Below the pieces are notes generated by a model. That model searched no databases. It saw only the letters and a list, made by a program, of their open reading frames with translations, and was not told where the DNA came from. The position numbers and the translations under genes were made by a program. A stretch of 64,000 nt of DNA from Sphingomonas jejuensis (GTDB lineage: Bacteria; Pseudomonadota; Alphaproteobacteria; Sphingomonadales; Sphingomonadaceae), in assembly GCF_011927695.1 (NCBI RefSeq), contig NZ_JAATJE010000001.1, positions 372,001-436,000 of the forward strand, written 5' to 3'. This document shows positions 20,484-26,996 of the stretch, piece after piece; position 1 is the first letter of the stretch; each line of letters starts with the position of its first letter.

Positions 20484-21575
20484 GTGGCGACCGTTCATTC
20501 TCTTGTGCCCCGCCCCGCGGGTGCCCGATCAGGCTCGATCAACGTGGCGCACGGCCTCGAGGAGGACGACAGCGTTGCAACGCTGACGCTCCTGACGGAG
20601 CAGTTCGGCCAAGCCGTGGGCGCGGATGGGACCGCTCTCATGCTCCGCACCTCTGGCGGCGACGATGGGACGTTGAGCGTGCTTGGCCTCGGCGGCGACT
20701 GCGCCGGCCCCGCCGCGCCCGAGATGCCGACCAGCGACGATGATCTGGCGGCGCTGGCATCGCAGGATGGCGGGCCGCACTGGATCCTTCGCCGCTTTCC
20801 TGTCTCGCGCGACGGGGCGACCTACCTTCTGCTGGGTGCAATGTTCCGCCGCGCGCGGTCGGGCAGCACCCGGGTGGTGGCGGAGGCCGAGCAGCGCTTT
20901 CAGCCGCTGTTCGCCGGCTTTGCCCGCCTCTGGGGGCGTGACCGCGCGTCAGAGCGTCGGCTGGCCGGCTACGCGTCGGCGCTCAACCATTCCGACATGG
21001 GCGTGATCCTGCTCGATCGGGAAGCGGACATCCTGTTCGCCAACGACGTGGCGACCGCGCTTCTCGATTCGTCCAACGGCATCCGCCGGCGCCGCCAGTC
21101 GATCGGCGCGACCGACCTGTCGGATGCGGTGAAGCTGCAGATCGCGATCGACCATGTCATCACGGCGGAAGCCGACCGCACGTCCCGGGCCCCGATCATC
21201 TCGCTGAAGCGCGGCATCGGCAAGCGCCCGTTGATCCTGTCGGTGCTGGCGCCCAAGGTCGCATCCGCCGGCGCACGCGACGTGGCGGCGATCCTCTACA
21301 TCTGCGATCCCGAACAGGATTTGATGCCGCTGATGCACGCGGCCTGCCGCTTCTACCGCCTGTCGCCGGTGGAAACGCGGCTCGCCTCCACGCTGGCCAG
21401 CGGTGCGACGCTCACCGAAGCGGCCGAGGCGCTCCACATCAAGGAGCAGACGGCCCGCAGCTATCTGAAGCAGGTGTTCATCAAGACGGGCACCCGCCGC
21501 CAGGGCGAGCTCATCCGCGTGATGTTGACCAGCATCAGCCGCGCGGCGCCGAAGGCCGATTTCGACATTATTTGA
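20484..21575 (+). CDS. LuxR-type HTH transcriptional regulator with PAS-like middle domain
   Basis: This 363-residue protein ends in a LuxR/GerE helix-turn-helix: YRLSPVETRLASTLASG, LTEAAEALHIKEQTARSYL and KQVFIKTGTRRQGELIRV, roughly residues 290-350. The middle (SDMGVILLDREADILFAND) looks like a PAS sensor fold. No receiver domain and no clear autoinducer domain are present, so the signal is unknown. The start is GTG 20484, seven bases after CGGAGAGGGG. It reads toward the Fap-like operon, whose first gene begins 222 bp downstream. It is the obvious candidate regulator of that operon, but only from position and shared TAACG half-sites. Confidence 0.82.
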   Translation: MATVHSLVPRPAGARSGSINVAHGLEEDDSVATLTLLTEQFGQAVGADGTALMLRTSGGDDGTLSVLGLGGDCAGPAAPEMPTSDDDLAALASQDGGPHWILRRFPVSRDGATYLLLGAMFRRARSGSTRVVAEAEQRFQPLFAGFARLWGRDRASERRLAGYASALNHSDMGVILLDREADILFANDVATALLDSSNGIRRRRQSIGATDLSDAVKLQIAIDHVITAEADRTSRAPIISLKRGIGKRPLILSVLAPKVASAGARDVAAILYICDPEQDLMPLMHAACRFYRLSPVETRLASTLASGATLTEAAEALHIKEQTARSYLKQVFIKTGTRRQGELIRVMLTSISRAAPKADFDII

Positions 21576-21797: not shown

Positions 21798-23387
21798 ATG
21801 AAGAAGACCTTGCTCACGACGACCGGCCTCGCCGCCGCCATGCTGTTCGCCGCGCCGATCGCCGCGCAGACGACGCCGGAAGGCACGACCGCCGGCGCCG
21901 GCCAGACCGCCGCCAACGGCGACGCCTCCACCAACAACGACAGCTTCAACGACAACTCGGACAGCTCGACCACCGACAATGTCGGCAACGACTATTCGGC
22001 GACCGATTCGAACGACGACAATTCGGACAATTCCGACAACTCGCTCGACAACGTCGGCAACGACTACTCGGCAACCGACTCGAACGACGACAACTCGGTC
22101 GATGCCACCAACCAGGGCAACGACTACTCGACGACCGATTCGAACGACGACAACTCGGTCGACGCCACCAACCAGGGCAACGATTACTCCACGACAGACT
22201 CGAACGACGACAACTCGCTCGACAATGTCGGCAACACCACGGACGCGTCGGACAATTCGAACCAGGGCAACGATTATTCGACCACGGATTCGAACGACGA
22301 CAACTCGGTCGATGCCACCAACCAGGGCAACGACTATTCGACGACCGACTCGAACGACGACAATTCGGACAATTCCGACAACTCGCTCGACAATGTCGGT
22401 AACGACTATTCGTCGGTCGACTCCAACGACGACAACTCGGACAGCTCCGATAACTCGGTAAACACCGATGCATCGACGACCGACAGCGGCAACGACAGCT
22501 CGGTCAACGGCAGCTACAACGACAATTCGGACAATTCTGACAACTCGCTCGACAACGTCGGCAACACGACGGACGCGTCCGACAGCTCGAACCAGGGCAA
22601 CGACAGCTCGGACAACTCGCTCGACAACGTCGGCAACACCACCGATGCGTCGGACAACACCAACCAGGGCAACGACAACAGCGACAACTCGACCACGGTT
22701 GGCGACGTGAGCGTGGCCGACAGCGCGAACCAGAACGACAGCAGCTACAACCAAGACAACGACATGGACAGCTCCGACAACTCGCTGGACAATGTCGGCA
22801 ACACCACCGATGCCTCGGACAATTCGAACCAGGGCAACGACTACTCGACCACCGACTCGAACGACGACAACTCGGATAATTCCGACAACTCGCTCGACAA
22901 TGTCGGCAACACCACCGATGCCTCGGACAATTCGAACCAGGGCAACGACTACTCGACGACCGACTCGAACGACGACAACTCGGATAACTCCGACAACTCG
23001 GACAACTCGATCTCGGGCAGCTACAACGACAATTCGGACAATTCCGACAACTCGGACAGCTCGGACAGCTCCACCGACACCACGATCGGCGACATCAGCG
23101 TCTCCGACACGGGCAACACCAACGACGTGACGGCCAATGGCGGCACGGCGGGCGTGTTCGGCGACAGCGCGATCGTCGCGTCGGCCTCGCTGTCCAACTC
23201 GGTGACGGGCGCCCCGGCGGGCTTCTCGGCCGCCGAAGGCTCGACGGTCAACGCCGGTGTCTCCATCGACGGCAGCTCGTTCCAGAACTTCGCCGGCATG
23301 CAGGCGCTGAACGTCAACTCGGGCGCGGGTGCCGCTCAGAACGCCAACGTCAGCGTCGCCGTCTCGGCGGGTGACGTCGGTCTCTGA
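21798..23387 (+). CDS. Secreted Asp/Asn/Ser-rich repeat protein, candidate functional-amyloid (FapC-like) subunit
   Basis: This 529-residue protein has a clear signal peptide (MKKTLLTTTGLAAAMLFAA, cleavage after PIAAQ or nearby). Most of the rest is imperfect repeats: NDYSxTDSNDDNS occurs nine times, alternating with SLDNVGNTTDASDNSNQG-type units. The mature part contains no Lys, Arg, His, Cys or Trp, so it is extremely acidic. The last 100 residues are different: Val/Ala/Gly-rich with SFQNFAGMQALNVNSG, a motif also present in the next gene. Position and partners (C39 peptidase and FapF-like pore downstream) suggest the fibre subunit of a Fap-like system. It lacks the CxxC motif of Pseudomonas FapC, and direct homology is not proven. 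A Ca-binding or matrix adhesin is the main alternative. ATG 21798 follows AGCAGGAAG. Confidence 0.7.
   Translation: MKKTLLTTTGLAAAMLFAAPIAAQTTPEGTTAGAGQTAANGDASTNNDSFNDNSDSSTTDNVGNDYSATDSNDDNSDNSDNSLDNVGNDYSATDSNDDNSVDATNQGNDYSTTDSNDDNSVDATNQGNDYSTTDSNDDNSLDNVGNTTDASDNSNQGNDYSTTDSNDDNSVDATNQGNDYSTTDSNDDNSDNSDNSLDNVGNDYSSVDSNDDNSDSSDNSVNTDASTTDSGNDSSVNGSYNDNSDNSDNSLDNVGNTTDASDSSNQGNDSSDNSLDNVGNTTDASDNTNQGNDNSDNSTTVGDVSVADSANQNDSSYNQDNDMDSSDNSLDNVGNTTDASDNSNQGNDYSTTDSNDDNSDNSDNSLDNVGNTTDASDNSNQGNDYSTTDSNDDNSDNSDNSDNSISGSYNDNSDNSDNSDSSDSSTDTTIGDISVSDTGNTNDVTANGGTAGVFGDSAIVASASLSNSVTGAPAGFSAAEGSTVNAGVSIDGSSFQNFAGMQALNVNSGAGAAQNANVSVAVSAGDVGL
21940..23080 (+). repeat. Coding tandem repeat array of the candidate amyloid subunit
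   Basis: Units of about 60 bases, often ending in AACGACGACAACTCGG or AACCAGGGCAACGACTAC, recur with few changes. Near-identity at the DNA level makes slipped-strand or recombination changes in copy number likely. The units stay in frame through the whole array. Confidence 0.9.
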
Positions 23388-23404
23388 TCGAACAATCGGG
23401 TTGG

Positions 23405-23435
23405 GGGCGGGTCGGCATCAGCCGGCCCGCCCTTT
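23405..23435 (+). terminator. Hairpin with short T run between candidate fibre gene and its companion
   Basis: GGGCGGGTCGGC (23405-23416) pairs with GCCGGCCCGCCC (23421-23432) through an ATCA loop with one G-T wobble, followed by TTT. It resembles an intrinsic terminator. It sits inside an otherwise tight operon, so it may let only part of transcription through and keep the fibre subunit in excess. Confidence 0.55.
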
Positions 23436-23469
23436 CCGGCTTCCGGAATGAAATGTGGAAGGACAAGTC

Positions 23470-23802
23470 ATGAAGGGGATCCTGCCACTGGCCGCCGTGC
23501 CGCTGATGTTGCTTGCCTCTCCTGCCGCCGCGCAGGTGTTCGGGGCAGCGGCGACGGTGGATGAAGCAACGCTGGGCGCGGTTGCCGGGCGAGAGGACAC
23601 GAACCAGCTGTCCGTCGCCAACAACACCAACAACGTGTCCAACAACAGTGTCGGCGACAACAGCACGACGGGGACCATCGGCATCGCGGACAACGCGTTC
23701 CAGAACCTGTCCGGGCTGTCGATCCTGAGCGTCAACTCGGGCAACAACGTCGCCATCAATGCCGCGATGAACGTCAACATCGCGATCACGCCCGCTCCGT
23801 GA
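23470..23802 (+). CDS. Small secreted companion of the repeat protein (FapB-like candidate)
   Basis: This 110-residue protein has a signal peptide, MKGILPLAAVPLMLLASPA then AAQ. The mature part is Asn/Val/Ser-rich with NNTNNVSNNSVGDNSTT and ends with AFQNLSGLSILSVNSGNN and NAAMNVNIAI. That end resembles the C-terminus of the upstream repeat protein (FQNxxGxxxLxVNSG). In Fap systems a minor subunit, FapB, nucleates the fibre and resembles FapC; by analogy this could be that part. VDEATLGAVAGRE near residue 30 resembles a double-glycine-type leader end. ATG 23470 follows AAGGACAAGTC. Its stop overlaps the GTG of the peptidase gene. Confidence 0.6.
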   Translation: MKGILPLAAVPLMLLASPAAAQVFGAAATVDEATLGAVAGREDTNQLSVANNTNNVSNNSVGDNSTTGTIGIADNAFQNLSGLSILSVNSGNNVAINAAMNVNIAITPAP

Positions 23803-24503
23803 TCGGGCGGTTGGCAGGCGCAGCCGCGATGTTGGCGGTGGGGGGCTGCGCGGCCAGCATCTCGCCCGAAGGCGCGCGGTTCCTGACGACTGCGGGGCCG
23901 ACGGGCGATTATGGCCTGGCCCTGCGCAGTGTGGAGGACCGGCGGTTCGACGGGGTGGTGCGACAGCGCTTCGATTTCAGCTGCGGGTCCGCCGCGCTGG
24001 CGACGCTGCTGCGTCACCATTATGCCGACCGGATCGACGAACGGCAGACCTTCCTCGGCATGTGGCGGGACGGCGATCAGGCGCAGATCCGCCGCGTCGG
24101 CTTCTCGCTGCTCGACATGAAGCGCTATCTTGCCGGGCGGCGGCTCGCGGCCGACGGCTATCAGGTCACGCTGGATCAGGTGGCGCAGGCGGGTGTCCCC
24201 GGCATCGCGCTGATCAGCATCCGCAACTACAAGCATTTCGTGGTGGTGAAGGGCGTTACGCCCACCGACGTGCTCGTCGGTGATCCGTCCACGGGCATGC
24301 AGGTCTATCCGCGCGATCGCTTCCAGGCGGCGTGGAACGGCATCTATTTCGTCATCAACGATCGGCAGGATCAGGGGCGCGCGGCTTTCAACCGCGGCAC
24401 GCAGTGGGCAACCGTCGCGCGGGCGCCGGTCGGCACCGATTTCCATGATCCGCTCAGTCTGCAGGCGCTGTCGATCACCGCCCCATTCTACAGGGATTTC
24501 TGA
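23799..24503 (+). CDS. C39-family cysteine peptidase, lipoprotein (FapD-like)
   Basis: This 234-residue protein has a lipobox (LAVGGC) and a papain-like peptidase domain of the C39 type. VVRQRFDFSCGSAALATLL gives Gln56 and nucleophile Cys62; His146 lies in NYKHFVVVKGV and Asp162 in VGDPSTG. All four positions are intact. C39 peptidases process double-glycine leaders in bacteriocin export, and FapD is the C39 peptidase needed for Fap amyloid secretion. The GTG start overlaps the previous stop as GTGA, and three bases separate it from the next gene. This gene plus the barrel gene downstream is the main reason for the Fap-like interpretation. Its exact target is unknown. Confidence 0.83.
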   Translation: MIGRLAGAAAMLAVGGCAASISPEGARFLTTAGPTGDYGLALRSVEDRRFDGVVRQRFDFSCGSAALATLLRHHYADRIDERQTFLGMWRDGDQAQIRRVGFSLLDMKRYLAGRRLAADGYQVTLDQVAQAGVPGIALISIRNYKHFVVVKGVTPTDVLVGDPSTGMQVYPRDRFQAAWNGIYFVINDRQDQGRAAFNRGTQWATVARAPVGTDFHDPLSLQALSITAPFYRDF

Positions 24504-24505
24504 CC

Positions 24506-25261
24506 ATGATGATCTTCGCGCTGATCGGCCTGGCCGTCGCCGCGCCGGCCACCCCTGTCGCCGCAGAGACGGCGGAGCCGGGCACGGACATCGTCGTCAC
24601 CGCGCGCCCGTTTCGTGGGGAGAAGGTGCCGGACGAGGCGCTGGCCACCATGCGCGGCGGCTTTCGCCTGCCCAGCGGGATCGACGTGTCGCTGGCGGTG
24701 CAGTCGGAAACCAGCGTCGACGGGCTGCTGCTGCTGCGAAGCGTGTATCGCATCGACGACGGCGCGCCGAAGCTGGCGCTGTTCGCGCCGGCACCGGGGC
24801 AGACGGTGCGCACGCAACCGGTGGAGGCGAACGGCGCGTCCGCCGGCGGCCTCGCCGTCAGCTTCGACCGCTCGTCGGGCGTGGTGTTCGTGCCCAGCGG
24901 CACCACGCGCCCGGCGGTAAGCGTCAGCAGCGGTGCCAGCCCCGCCGCGGCGGCGCCGGATGGCCTTGCGCCCATCGACATCGCGCCGGGCGGCAGCGTC
25001 GATACCAACGGCGGCACCGTGCGGCTGGTGGATGCCGGCGGGCAGATCCAGGCGCGGCTCGACGGCATGGAGATCGACGTCGGCCATGTGTTCGGGCAGG
25101 GCTTCGGCACGATCATCGCCAACAGCGGCAACGACAGGACCATCGACACCGTGACCACGATCTCCCTGGACCTGACCGGAACCACGCCCTTCAATCTCGG
25201 GTCGGCCGCCATGCGGATCGACGGGCTGGCGACCGATGCCGTGCGCGGGATGATCCGCTGA
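24506..25261 (+). CDS. Exported protein of the Fap-like operon (possible FapE role)
   Basis: This 251-residue protein has a short signal peptide (MMIFALIGLAVAAPATPVAA). Near residue 38 it has VPDEALATMRGGFRLPSG, which contains a Gly-Gly preceded by Leu and Met, like a C39 leader junction. The C-terminal half is beta-rich and polar: PGGSVDTNGGTVRLVDAG, GTIIANSGNDRTIDTVTT and LDLTGTTPFNLGSAAMRI. No catalytic motif is visible. Order in the operon (after the peptidase, before the pore) matches FapE of Pseudomonas, an extracellular component, but I cannot confirm homology by eye. Its stop overlaps the ATG of the barrel gene as TGATG. Confidence 0.55.
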   Translation: MMIFALIGLAVAAPATPVAAETAEPGTDIVVTARPFRGEKVPDEALATMRGGFRLPSGIDVSLAVQSETSVDGLLLLRSVYRIDDGAPKLALFAPAPGQTVRTQPVEANGASAGGLAVSFDRSSGVVFVPSGTTRPAVSVSSGASPAAAAPDGLAPIDIAPGGSVDTNGGTVRLVDAGGQIQARLDGMEIDVGHVFGQGFGTIIANSGNDRTIDTVTTISLDLTGTTPFNLGSAAMRIDGLATDAVRGMIR

Positions 25262-26589
25262 TGCGCTGCCTTCTTCTGGGAACCGCGGCTGCGACCATGC
25301 TCGCCGCGCCCGCCCTGGCCCAGACGGCGGCGCCCGCCGCCGACCCGCTGCGCGCCGAACTCAACGCCGCCCGTGCCGAGATCGCGGCGCAGCGGGAAGC
25401 GCTGCGGCGGCAGGAGGAGCGGCTGCGCGCGCTGGAAGCCCGGCTGACCGGTGCCGGCGGCGCGGGCGCGGGCGCCGCAACGGCGGCCACGGCGGCGAAC
25501 CCGGCCGCCGCGCCCGCGGTCGCCGCCGCGCAGGGCAGCGCCTCCACCGCCGGCGGCGATCCCGCCAGCATCCAGTCCGCCCCCATCGAGACGGTCGGCG
25601 CCGCGCCCGAGGATTACGACCGCGCGCCCGAGGTTGCCGTGCTCGGCGACCAGGGCAGCGTCGTCACCCGGCGCGGCGCGCTGACCGGCGAGATCGGCTT
25701 TGAATATGCGCGCGCCGACCGCAACCGCGCGGTCTTCCGCGGGATCGAGCTGATCGAGTCGGTGCTCGTCGGCGTCTTCGACATCAACGAAAGCCGGCAG
25801 GACGTGCTGACGGCCAACGCCACGCTCCGCTACGGCATCACCGACCGGTTCGAGGTCGGCGCGCGCGTGCCCTATATCTACCGCAGCGACACCTCCGTGC
25901 TCGCGCCCATTTCCGGCACCACGCCCACGCCCAACGACGCGCCCGACACCACCAACGGCAACGGCATCGGCGACCTGGAGCTCAGCGGCCGGTACCAGTT
26001 GCGCAGCGCGCGCGGCGGCTGGCCCTTCCTGATCGCCAACATGCAGGCCGTGTTCCCGACCGGCACCGACCCGTTCGAGGTGCCGCGCGACAGCCTCGGC
26101 CGGCAGCTGGAGGCGGCGACCGGCGCCGGCTTCTACGGCCTGTCGCCAAGCCTCACCGCGATCCTGCCGAGCGACCCGGTCGTGCTGTTCGGCACGCTCG
26201 GCTACACCTTCAACCTCGCCAAGGACGTCAACACGACGATCGGCGACCTGGTCATCGAACGGGTCAATCCCGGCGACGCGATTTCCGCCAGCGCCGGGAT
26301 CGGCATCGCGTTCAACCAGCGCACGACGCTCAACCTCGGCTACGCGCACACCTGGGCGTTCGGGTCGGAAACCTGGACGCGGCTGCTCGATCCGGGAAAT
26401 GCGCCCGACATGGGCCGCACCCGTGCCACCTCGCGCGACCTGCAGGTCGGCCGGCTGCTGTTCGGCGTCACCTACCGCGCGTCGGACCGGGCGAGCCTCA
26501 ACTGGTCGGTCGAACTGGGCGCCACCGACGATGCCACCGACCTGCGCACCGTGCTCCGCATCCCGGTGGTGCTGCTGACGGGCGGTTGA
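25261..26589 (+). CDS. Coiled-coil plus beta-barrel outer-membrane transporter (FapF-like)
   Basis: This 442-residue protein starts with a signal peptide (MRCLLLGTAAATMLAAPALA), then a heptad coiled coil ELNAARAEIAAQREALRRQE to about residue 61, then an Ala-rich linker. After that comes a barrel with segments TGEIGFEYARADRNRAVF, TLRYGITDRFEVGARVPY and SASAGIGIAFNQRTTLNLGY. This layout (helical N-terminus for trimer formation, linker plug, 12-strand barrel) and the length match FapF, which exports Fap subunits. RYGITDRFEVGARVPYIYR is a hallmark of this transporter group. The ATG is coupled to the upstream stop (TGATG), and the stop is coupled to the next gene in the same way. Confidence 0.78.
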   Translation: MRCLLLGTAAATMLAAPALAQTAAPAADPLRAELNAARAEIAAQREALRRQEERLRALEARLTGAGGAGAGAATAATAANPAAAPAVAAAQGSASTAGGDPASIQSAPIETVGAAPEDYDRAPEVAVLGDQGSVVTRRGALTGEIGFEYARADRNRAVFRGIELIESVLVGVFDINESRQDVLTANATLRYGITDRFEVGARVPYIYRSDTSVLAPISGTTPTPNDAPDTTNGNGIGDLELSGRYQLRSARGGWPFLIANMQAVFPTGTDPFEVPRDSLGRQLEAATGAGFYGLSPSLTAILPSDPVVLFGTLGYTFNLAKDVNTTIGDLVIERVNPGDAISASAGIGIAFNQRTTLNLGYAHTWAFGSETWTRLLDPGNAPDMGRTRATSRDLQVGRLLFGVTYRASDRASLNWSVELGATDDATDLRTVLRIPVVLLTGG

Positions 26590-26996
26590 TGCGGCGCCGC
26601 CTCGCTGTTCTCGCCATCGTCGCCGCGGCGGGTGGCTGCGCCACGACGTCCGGCGGCCTTGCGACCGCTGATCTCGTCGCCGGCACCAACGAGCCCTTCT
26701 ACAGCATGGAGGTAACGGGCGACCGCGCCAGCCTGACCGGGGTGGACATGTCGCCTCGCACGCTCCGCATCAGCCGCCGCGCGGCGGAAGGCGGCGGCGT
26801 CCTGATCGACGCCGCGGACGGCGCCGGCACGGTCCGGCTGCTCGTCCGTCCGCAGGCCTGCACCGACGATATGTCCGGCGCGGTGTTTCCGTTGTCCGCC
26901 ACGCTCAGCATCGCGGGGCGTGACCACCGCGGCTGCGCGCGTCGCCTGTCCCGATCCGCGGCCGCGCGCCGCCGACTGACGCCGGCGCGACTATAA
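26589..26996 (+). CDS. Small lipoprotein with COG3650-like domain, end of the Fap-like operon
   Basis: This 135-residue protein has a lipobox (AIVAAAGGC, Cys17). The domain includes NEPFYSMEVTGDRASL, then CTDDMSGAVFPLSATL and GRDHRGCARRL, which resembles the COG3650 fold with its two conserved cysteines. These proteins are found in the envelope of many proteobacteria and have no set function. The ATG overlaps the upstream stop by one base, so it belongs to the operon. It is an unusual member of a Fap-type cluster and might aid assembly or anchoring. The C-terminal [15 protein letters not shown] is basic and unstructured. Confidence 0.6.
   Translation: MRRRLAVLAIVAAAGGCATTSGGLATADLVAGTNEPFYSMEVTGDRASLTGVDMSPRTLRISRRAAEGGGVLIDAADGAGTVRLLVRPQACTDDMSGAVFPLSATLSIAGRDHRGCARRLSRSAAARRRLTPARL

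Follow-up and report, generated by a model that had tools for sequence, protein, structure and literature searches.

A probable Fap-like secretion and surface-assembly gene cluster in Sphingomonas jejuensis, on a sister branch of canonical Fap

We examined a gene cluster within a 64,000-nucleotide stretch of the Sphingomonas jejuensis genome (contig NZ_JAATJE010000001.1, positions 372,001 to 436,000, forward strand; hereafter the window), which had originally been predicted to be a divergent Fap-like functional amyloid operon of six tightly packed genes. Six + strand open reading frames (ORFs), g1 to g6, are present, and neighbouring ORFs overlap or sit close together. For the last of these, g6, none of the other loci examined holds a homologue, and neither Pfam nor NCBIfam gives a family at a meaningful E-value; on account of this absence of conservation it was rejected as a subunit, and the conserved system therefore comprises g1 to g5 rather than six genes. 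Searches with g1, g2, g4 and g6 against Pfam, NCBIfam and PHROGs returned no usable family, Rfam gave no match, and promoter and terminator scans yielded nothing informative. Homologues of the likely regulator gene listed first below lie close to the cluster in most sphingomonad loci. The features, in positions of the window, are as follows.

20484..21575, + strand: PAS/LuxR-type transcription regulator, likely the operon regulator (weak Pfam PAS_8 and GerE matches)
21798..23387, + strand: g1, exported repeat protein, acidic and of low complexity (Ser/Asp/Asn), candidate for the major secreted subunit (from sequence and composition)
23265..23384, + strand: C-terminal ~40 amino acids (aa) of g1, a derived Fap-type imperfect repeat (profile comparison, four-repeat intermediates)
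23470..23802, + strand: g2, small exported protein of 110 aa, candidate minor subunit or nucleator
23572..23592, + strand: g2 leader motif LGAVAGR (Leu35 to Arg41), predicted C39 site
23671..23790, + strand: g2 C-terminal repeat-like region (invariant residues, profile matches)
23799..24503, + strand: g3, FapD-like C39 cysteine peptidase of 234 aa (Pfam C39 6.8e-17, NCBIfam FapD 3.6e-43)
23982-23984, 24234-24236 and 24282-24284, + strand: g3 catalytic codons for Cys62, His146 and Asp162
24506..25261, + strand: g4, exported FapE-like protein (hhalign to FapE, weak FapE matches among relatives)
24641..24661, + strand: g4 leader motif LATMRGG (Leu46 to Gly52), predicted C39 site
25261..26589, + strand: g5, FapF-like outer-membrane pore (NCBIfam FapF, PDB 5o67, tree)
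about 25348-25452, + strand: g5 coiled-coil segment
about 25609-26568, + strand: g5 barrel
26589..26996, + strand: g6, small putative lipoprotein, probably outside the system

Profile searches place the pore and the peptidase closest to FapF and FapD, as had been proposed from the sequence alone. The NCBIfam FapF model matches g5 over nearly its full length (3.1e-37), and comparison with the FapF structure (PDB 5o67; 1.8e-28) aligns aa 117-436 with the crystallised barrel; a charged heptad-like segment (aa 30-64) precedes the barrel, in agreement with the predicted coiled coil plus beta-barrel. Residues Cys62, His146 and Asp162 of g3, first noted as an intact catalytic set, are invariant across 15 homologues, as is Gln56. 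FapD and FapF are the best matches, yet the scores remain far below the curated cut-offs (147 bits against 330 for FapD; 128 bits against an equivalog cut-off of 700 for FapF), and g3 and g5 are thus Fap-related proteins outside the recognised Fap families. Each of the two models matches one place in the window genome. The peptidase is a stand-alone protein rather than a C39 domain fused to an ATP-binding cassette (ABC) transporter, and a lipobox-like sequence (MLAVGGC) suggests that it may be lipid-anchored. A better match to bacteriocin export, named beforehand as an outcome that would count against the amyloid reading, was not seen: the NHLM ABC exporter model matches g3 at 7.3e-12, much more weakly than FapD. 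Matches to FilB (4.9e-33 with g3) and FilC (1.1e-13 with g5) are also weaker than those to FapD and FapF, and lie far under their cut-offs.

In common with the fapABCDEF operon of Pseudomonas, the cluster has a FapF-like pore, a FapD-like C39 peptidase, a FapE-like protein sharing the leader region and a Fap-type repeat in its secreted candidates, and the predicted correspondence of gene order holds in that D-E-F is kept. In contrast to Pseudomonas, NCBIfam recognises no FapA, FapB or FapC in the window, the subunit genes stand in large-small order, and each candidate subunit has one C-terminal repeat instead of three, together with a long acidic low-complexity region in g1. The two systems also fall on separate sides of the FapF and FapD trees, with the window proteins scoring far below the NCBIfam cut-offs.

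Leader motif and candidate peptidase site

Comparison of g4 with a FapE profile (hhalign) gave P = 8e-7 over 36 columns in the leader region. The FapE model itself weakly matches five of 32 g4 relatives (best 0.0019), with g4 of the window below threshold. Based on these comparisons, g4 appears to be a remote relative of FapE, homologous over the leader region. One of the canonical FapE sets was chosen by a motif-like pattern, which makes motif conservation in that set circular, and the g4-FapE profile match rests partly on it; the motif test was redone on FapE coordinates located with the NCBIfam FapE model. In the 13 regions located this way, Leu or Met at -7, Gly at -2 and Lys or Arg at -1 relative to the proposed cut are present in all (13/13). 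Residues R50, G51 and G52 of g4 are invariant in 32 proteins, with a Leu seven residues ahead of the proposed cut. A strict form of the motif, [DE]x(0-3)[LM]x3RG[GKR], occurs in 76 of 85 g4 proteins (89%) versus 14 of 1414 other ORFs (about 1%), and at least four of these 14 are themselves FapE or g4. In Pseudomonas, the FapE motif reads DxELxxxRG[KR]. The g2 leader is built alike, its -1 residue being Gly, Arg or Gln, and Leu35 and Gly40 are nearly invariant in 52 g2 proteins.

In Pseudomonas, Cys38 of FapD is required for secretion of FapC, no FapE peptides were recovered from the first ~70 residues, and the target of FapD was stated to be unclear, the Fap proteins being without canonical C39 sites (PMC5557850). 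Because the motif is conserved, FapD needs its active-site Cys, the N-terminal peptides of FapE are missing and the target is unclear, we regard the motif shared by g4, g2 and canonical FapE as a strong candidate for the site cut by FapD-type peptidases. FapF was considered as a general substrate of the peptidase and rejected, the strict motif being found in only six of 102 branch FapF and two of 20 canonical-set FapF proteins.

Leader-like motifs were also observed in a canonical FapF linker (L039:7665-9080), in genes upstream of FapB at the FapA position (L204:12269-12703 and L206:3107-3451) and in FilA of Acinetobacter (L199:5496-6365), which suggests that exported C39 peptidases paired with their own leaders form a broader class. 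The Acinetobacter Fil system (FilA-FilF) resembles the window cluster in its C39 peptidase FilB, its FapF-related FilC and the FilA leader-like sequence DDAALSAATGQ, and four g2 members weakly match DUF6160. The similarity is distant, however, the other genes differ, and Fil has been described just as a putative pilus system.

The same leaders resemble those of double-glycine leader/C39 exporters, which share Leu at -7, a hydrophobic residue at -4, Gly at -2 and -1, and the C39 catalytic residues, and one might accordingly suppose that the peptidase matures small bioactive peptides (bacteriocins or signals) from g2 and g4 for exit via the pore. A single g2 protein among 52 matches a lantibiotic-type Pfam model, at 0.1 only. 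Unlike such exporters, the window peptidase is stand-alone and exported, with an outer-membrane pore in place of an ABC transporter. The lack of an ABC exporter and of an immunity gene, the best fit of peptidase and pore to FapD and FapF, the length (about 70-200 aa) and Asn/Gly-rich composition of the products, and the presence of g1, which would be left unexplained, make maturation of bioactive peptides highly improbable.

Terminal repeats of g1 and g2

The description of g1 as an acidic repeat protein is borne out: it is a 529-aa protein with a signal peptide, composed largely of D (101), S (99) and N (98), with an isoelectric point of 4.05 and a net charge of about -101, and it is encoded by tandemly repeated DNA (periods of 9 to 108 bp). 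Neither g1 nor g2 contains Cys, and hence neither contains CxxC, and neither is matched by the NCBIfam FapB or FapC models. The FapC family is absent from the window genome, and the FapB/C repeat hidden Markov model (HMM) has no match in the window or in 14 independent loci. The fibre candidate had been described as different in sequence from that of Pseudomonas and lacking CxxC; the latter is correct, but the difference is incomplete, as the protein ends in a Fap-type repeat. A g1 counterpart stands upstream of g2 in most loci. Among these relatives the low-complexity part varies in composition (SDN-, Gly- or Thr/Lys-rich), whereas the last ~40 residues are kept. This terminus resembles that of g2 (hhalign P = 3e-8), in which G68, G82, N89 and G91 are invariant across 52 proteins, and both termini match canonical FapB/C repeats in profile comparisons (P = 1e-4 to 5e-4); none of 60 column-shuffled controls per pair equalled these matches.

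Bridging sequences were found at the g1 position in Roseomonas/Neoroseomonas and Acidithiobacillus. These proteins have four repeats and match both the FapB/C repeat HMM (1.5e-12 to 2.5e-5) and a g1 C-terminal HMM (1e-13 to 1e-24) that was built leaving them out; the latter HMM also matches a canonical FapB at 2.8e-5. Because such multi-repeat intermediates link the two, the terminal repeats of g1 and g2 are best explained as Fap-derived, each protein ending in one derived, remotely homologous Fap repeat. The Acidithiobacillus Fap loci, previously described as deviating (Dueholm 2013, PMC3792158), lie within the branch of the window in the FapF tree and have a repeat protein fitting both HMMs; they differ from the window in carrying several Fap repeats, where g1 has a single repeat and an extended Ser/Asp/Asn stretch. 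Neither g2 nor a multi-repeat relative retrieved anything relevant from the PDB.

Two other roles may be considered for the parts of these proteins. In the first, g1 and g2 would be non-amyloid surface proteins exported by Fap-like secretion, their C-terminal motif acting as a secretion signal for the pore or g4 and the acidic low-complexity region acting as the working part, in hydration, cation binding or as a matrix polymer. A single repeat-like motif per subunit, always C-terminal, is what such a signal might look like, the long part is indeed acidic and low in complexity, and g4 too has a conserved Asn-rich motif at its C-terminus. The four-repeat bridging proteins are hard to reconcile with a secretion signal, however, and the motif shares ancestry with the FapC amyloid core, such that we consider this role unlikely. 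In the second, the Ser/Asp/Asn low-complexity repeats of g1, which are Asn-rich and in tandem, would constitute the amyloid spine of a novel kind of fibre, as the original description implied. From one relative to the next their composition changes, the C-terminus being conserved, and a net charge as negative as that of g1 opposes stacking, which leaves a low-complexity spine very unlikely.

Distribution and phylogenetic placement

A g5 match was found in 21 of 120 relatives, and the surroundings of the gene were read for the 17 best-matching relatives besides the window. Three of the 17 loci (L038-L040, in sphingomonad genomes G060, G042 and G014) are canonical-type Fap with FapB/C repeats, L039 matching FapC at 1.6e-20 and FapE at 1.5e-22; the others are of the window type, with a low-complexity protein, a small protein, C39, g4 and FapF. 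L039 and L040 have an extra gene of ~200 aa between FapE and FapF, and L038 has a short protein with an RGG leader at the FapE position. The window-type loci form either one operon or have FapF transcribed apart, in several cases then behind a sigma-54-type activator. A gene for a sigma-54-type enhancer-binding protein lies directly upstream of FapF in six loci (L028, L029, L030, L032, L033 and L034), in place of the LuxR/PAS regulator of the window. The window-type cluster is also present in Sphingomonas abaci DSM 15867.

Beyond the sphingomonads, a search of named genomes with the C39 alignment led to 80 loci being kept, from Alpha-, Beta- and Gammaproteobacteria, Geobacteraceae and Myxococcota. 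HMMs of g2 and g4 built from sphingomonadales seeds detect both next to the C39 gene at almost every locus, g2 homologues lying directly upstream of that gene across classes; strict g2-C39-g4 adjacency with FapF nearby occurs in 70 of 102 loci. FapF scores are bimodal in a Pseudomonadota sample of about 396 genomes: the branch is present in 15 genomes including that of the window (14 others, best E 2e-171 to 6e-87), and canonical FapF in 20 (E 1e-51 to 1e-68), the same 20 that have FapE. All of the 14 loci found through FapF alone have g2, C39 and g4, and 12 have a detectable g1 C-terminus. In an Alphaproteobacteria sample, the branch was found in 10 other genomes (E below 1e-100), compared with three FapC-bearing genomes out of 385. 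Both systems occur together in G525 and G573 of the Pseudomonadota sample and in G242 of the class survey (L168 and L173). The branch thus extends across several classes of proteobacteria and into two further phyla and is not a sphingomonad speciality. An alphaproteobacterial version does exist, as originally suggested, but the branch extends to further classes, and canonical-type Fap is also found in Alphaproteobacteria, Sphingomonadaceae included.

Individual loci depart from the common layout. The g1-g2-C39-g4 block is tandemly duplicated beside a single FapF gene at L222:597-5979, and an orphan FapF-like gene of the branch, with C39, g2 and g4 not nearby, lies at L229:5998-7194 in a genome that also has a complete cluster (L219). 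The megaplasmid of Cupriavidus metallidurans CH34, a well-known laboratory strain, carries a window-type cluster (L197), unannotated in the plasmid table; the FapF of this cluster likewise contains an RGG motif.

The FapF tree has 81 rows; those of the branch, 64 in number, lie on one side of a split with support of 100/98, and the FapD tree contains the same split (support 98). The divergent canonical-type sphingomonad row L038 is a long-stemmed neighbour of the branch, and the length of the Acinetobacter row (branch length 2.75) precludes its placement. Since the cluster has neither the repeat content nor the tree position of canonical Fap, we classify it as a sister system of Fap-like type. 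Homology of the peptidase, the pore, the leader region and the C-terminal repeats to their Fap counterparts is established by these sequence comparisons.

Proposed working and significance

Based on the combined evidence, we propose that the cluster encodes a Fap-like machinery for secretion and surface assembly. It would represent a sister branch to canonical Fap, with a one-repeat fibre core and an acidic brush, and we consider this interpretation fairly probable. The signal-peptide-like N-termini of g1, g2, g4 and the pore suggest export by Sec. A periplasmic C39 peptidase would then cut the g4 and g2 leaders behind Leu-x4-Gly-[Gly/Arg/Lys/Gln], and this cleavage may license secretion, as suggested by the conservation of the motif and the published need for the active-site Cys of FapD. 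By analogy with FapF, a trimeric pore would conduct g1, g2 and probably also g4 outwards in unfolded form. At the surface, the single C-terminal repeats of g1 and g2 could stack into a cross-beta core, in which g2 would serve as minor subunit or nucleator, and g4 may be the anchor. The ~400-residue acidic low-complexity part of g1 would form a hydrated, strongly charged brush. Amyloid formation by the candidate subunits is what we infer from their sequences.

Several observations weigh against this proposal. Direct matches of g1 and g2 to canonical repeats are weak (hhalign probability 31-58%), and the low-complexity part of g1 is unconserved in composition. The -1 residue of the window g2 is Arg and not Gly, which is unusual for C39 peptidases. 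A lack of beta-stacking in predicted structures of the repeat proteins had been named beforehand as contrary to the amyloid reading, and the models obtained are low in confidence. The predicted structure of g2 (predicted local distance difference test score, pLDDT, 64.5) consists of a leader helix (residues 32-37, low confidence) and two short strands, and that of a four-repeat g1 relative, predicted from two sequences, has a pLDDT of 29.5. Nor is a stable amyloid core assured, as each subunit has a single repeat where FapC almost universally has three (PMC12822426, PMC12392863).

An early survey restricted Fap to three classes, noting that the FapD and FapF HMMs matched larger families (Dueholm 2013, PMC3792158). 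Surveys from 2025 required the FapB/C repeat, found three repeats to be almost universal, and described Fap as evolutionarily fixed, genomes usually having a single cluster (PMC12392863, PMC12822426). The branch shares the pore and the peptidase but lacks readily detectable repeats, and surveys anchored on FapB/C would therefore filter it out; this is deduced from their criterion, as the repeat HMM used here differs from theirs. The open-licence literature searched contained no description of the branch, nor of Fap in sphingomonads or Alphaproteobacteria; the branch, although widespread, is apparently unrecognised.

We put forward more tentatively, as something that may well hold yet falls a little short of being probable, that the branch is a second major functional-amyloid lineage, about as common in Pseudomonadota as canonical Fap, with one-repeat subunits bearing long low-complexity brushes, and that the Leu-x4-Gly-[Gly/Lys/Arg] motif of FapE, g4 and g2 is the FapD-type cleavage site in both lineages. 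If fibres are indeed made, Fap-type secretion would be more diverse than described, and the branch would offer a minimal one-repeat core for study. The leader motif, for its part, would provide a directly testable answer to the question of the FapD substrate (PMC5557850).

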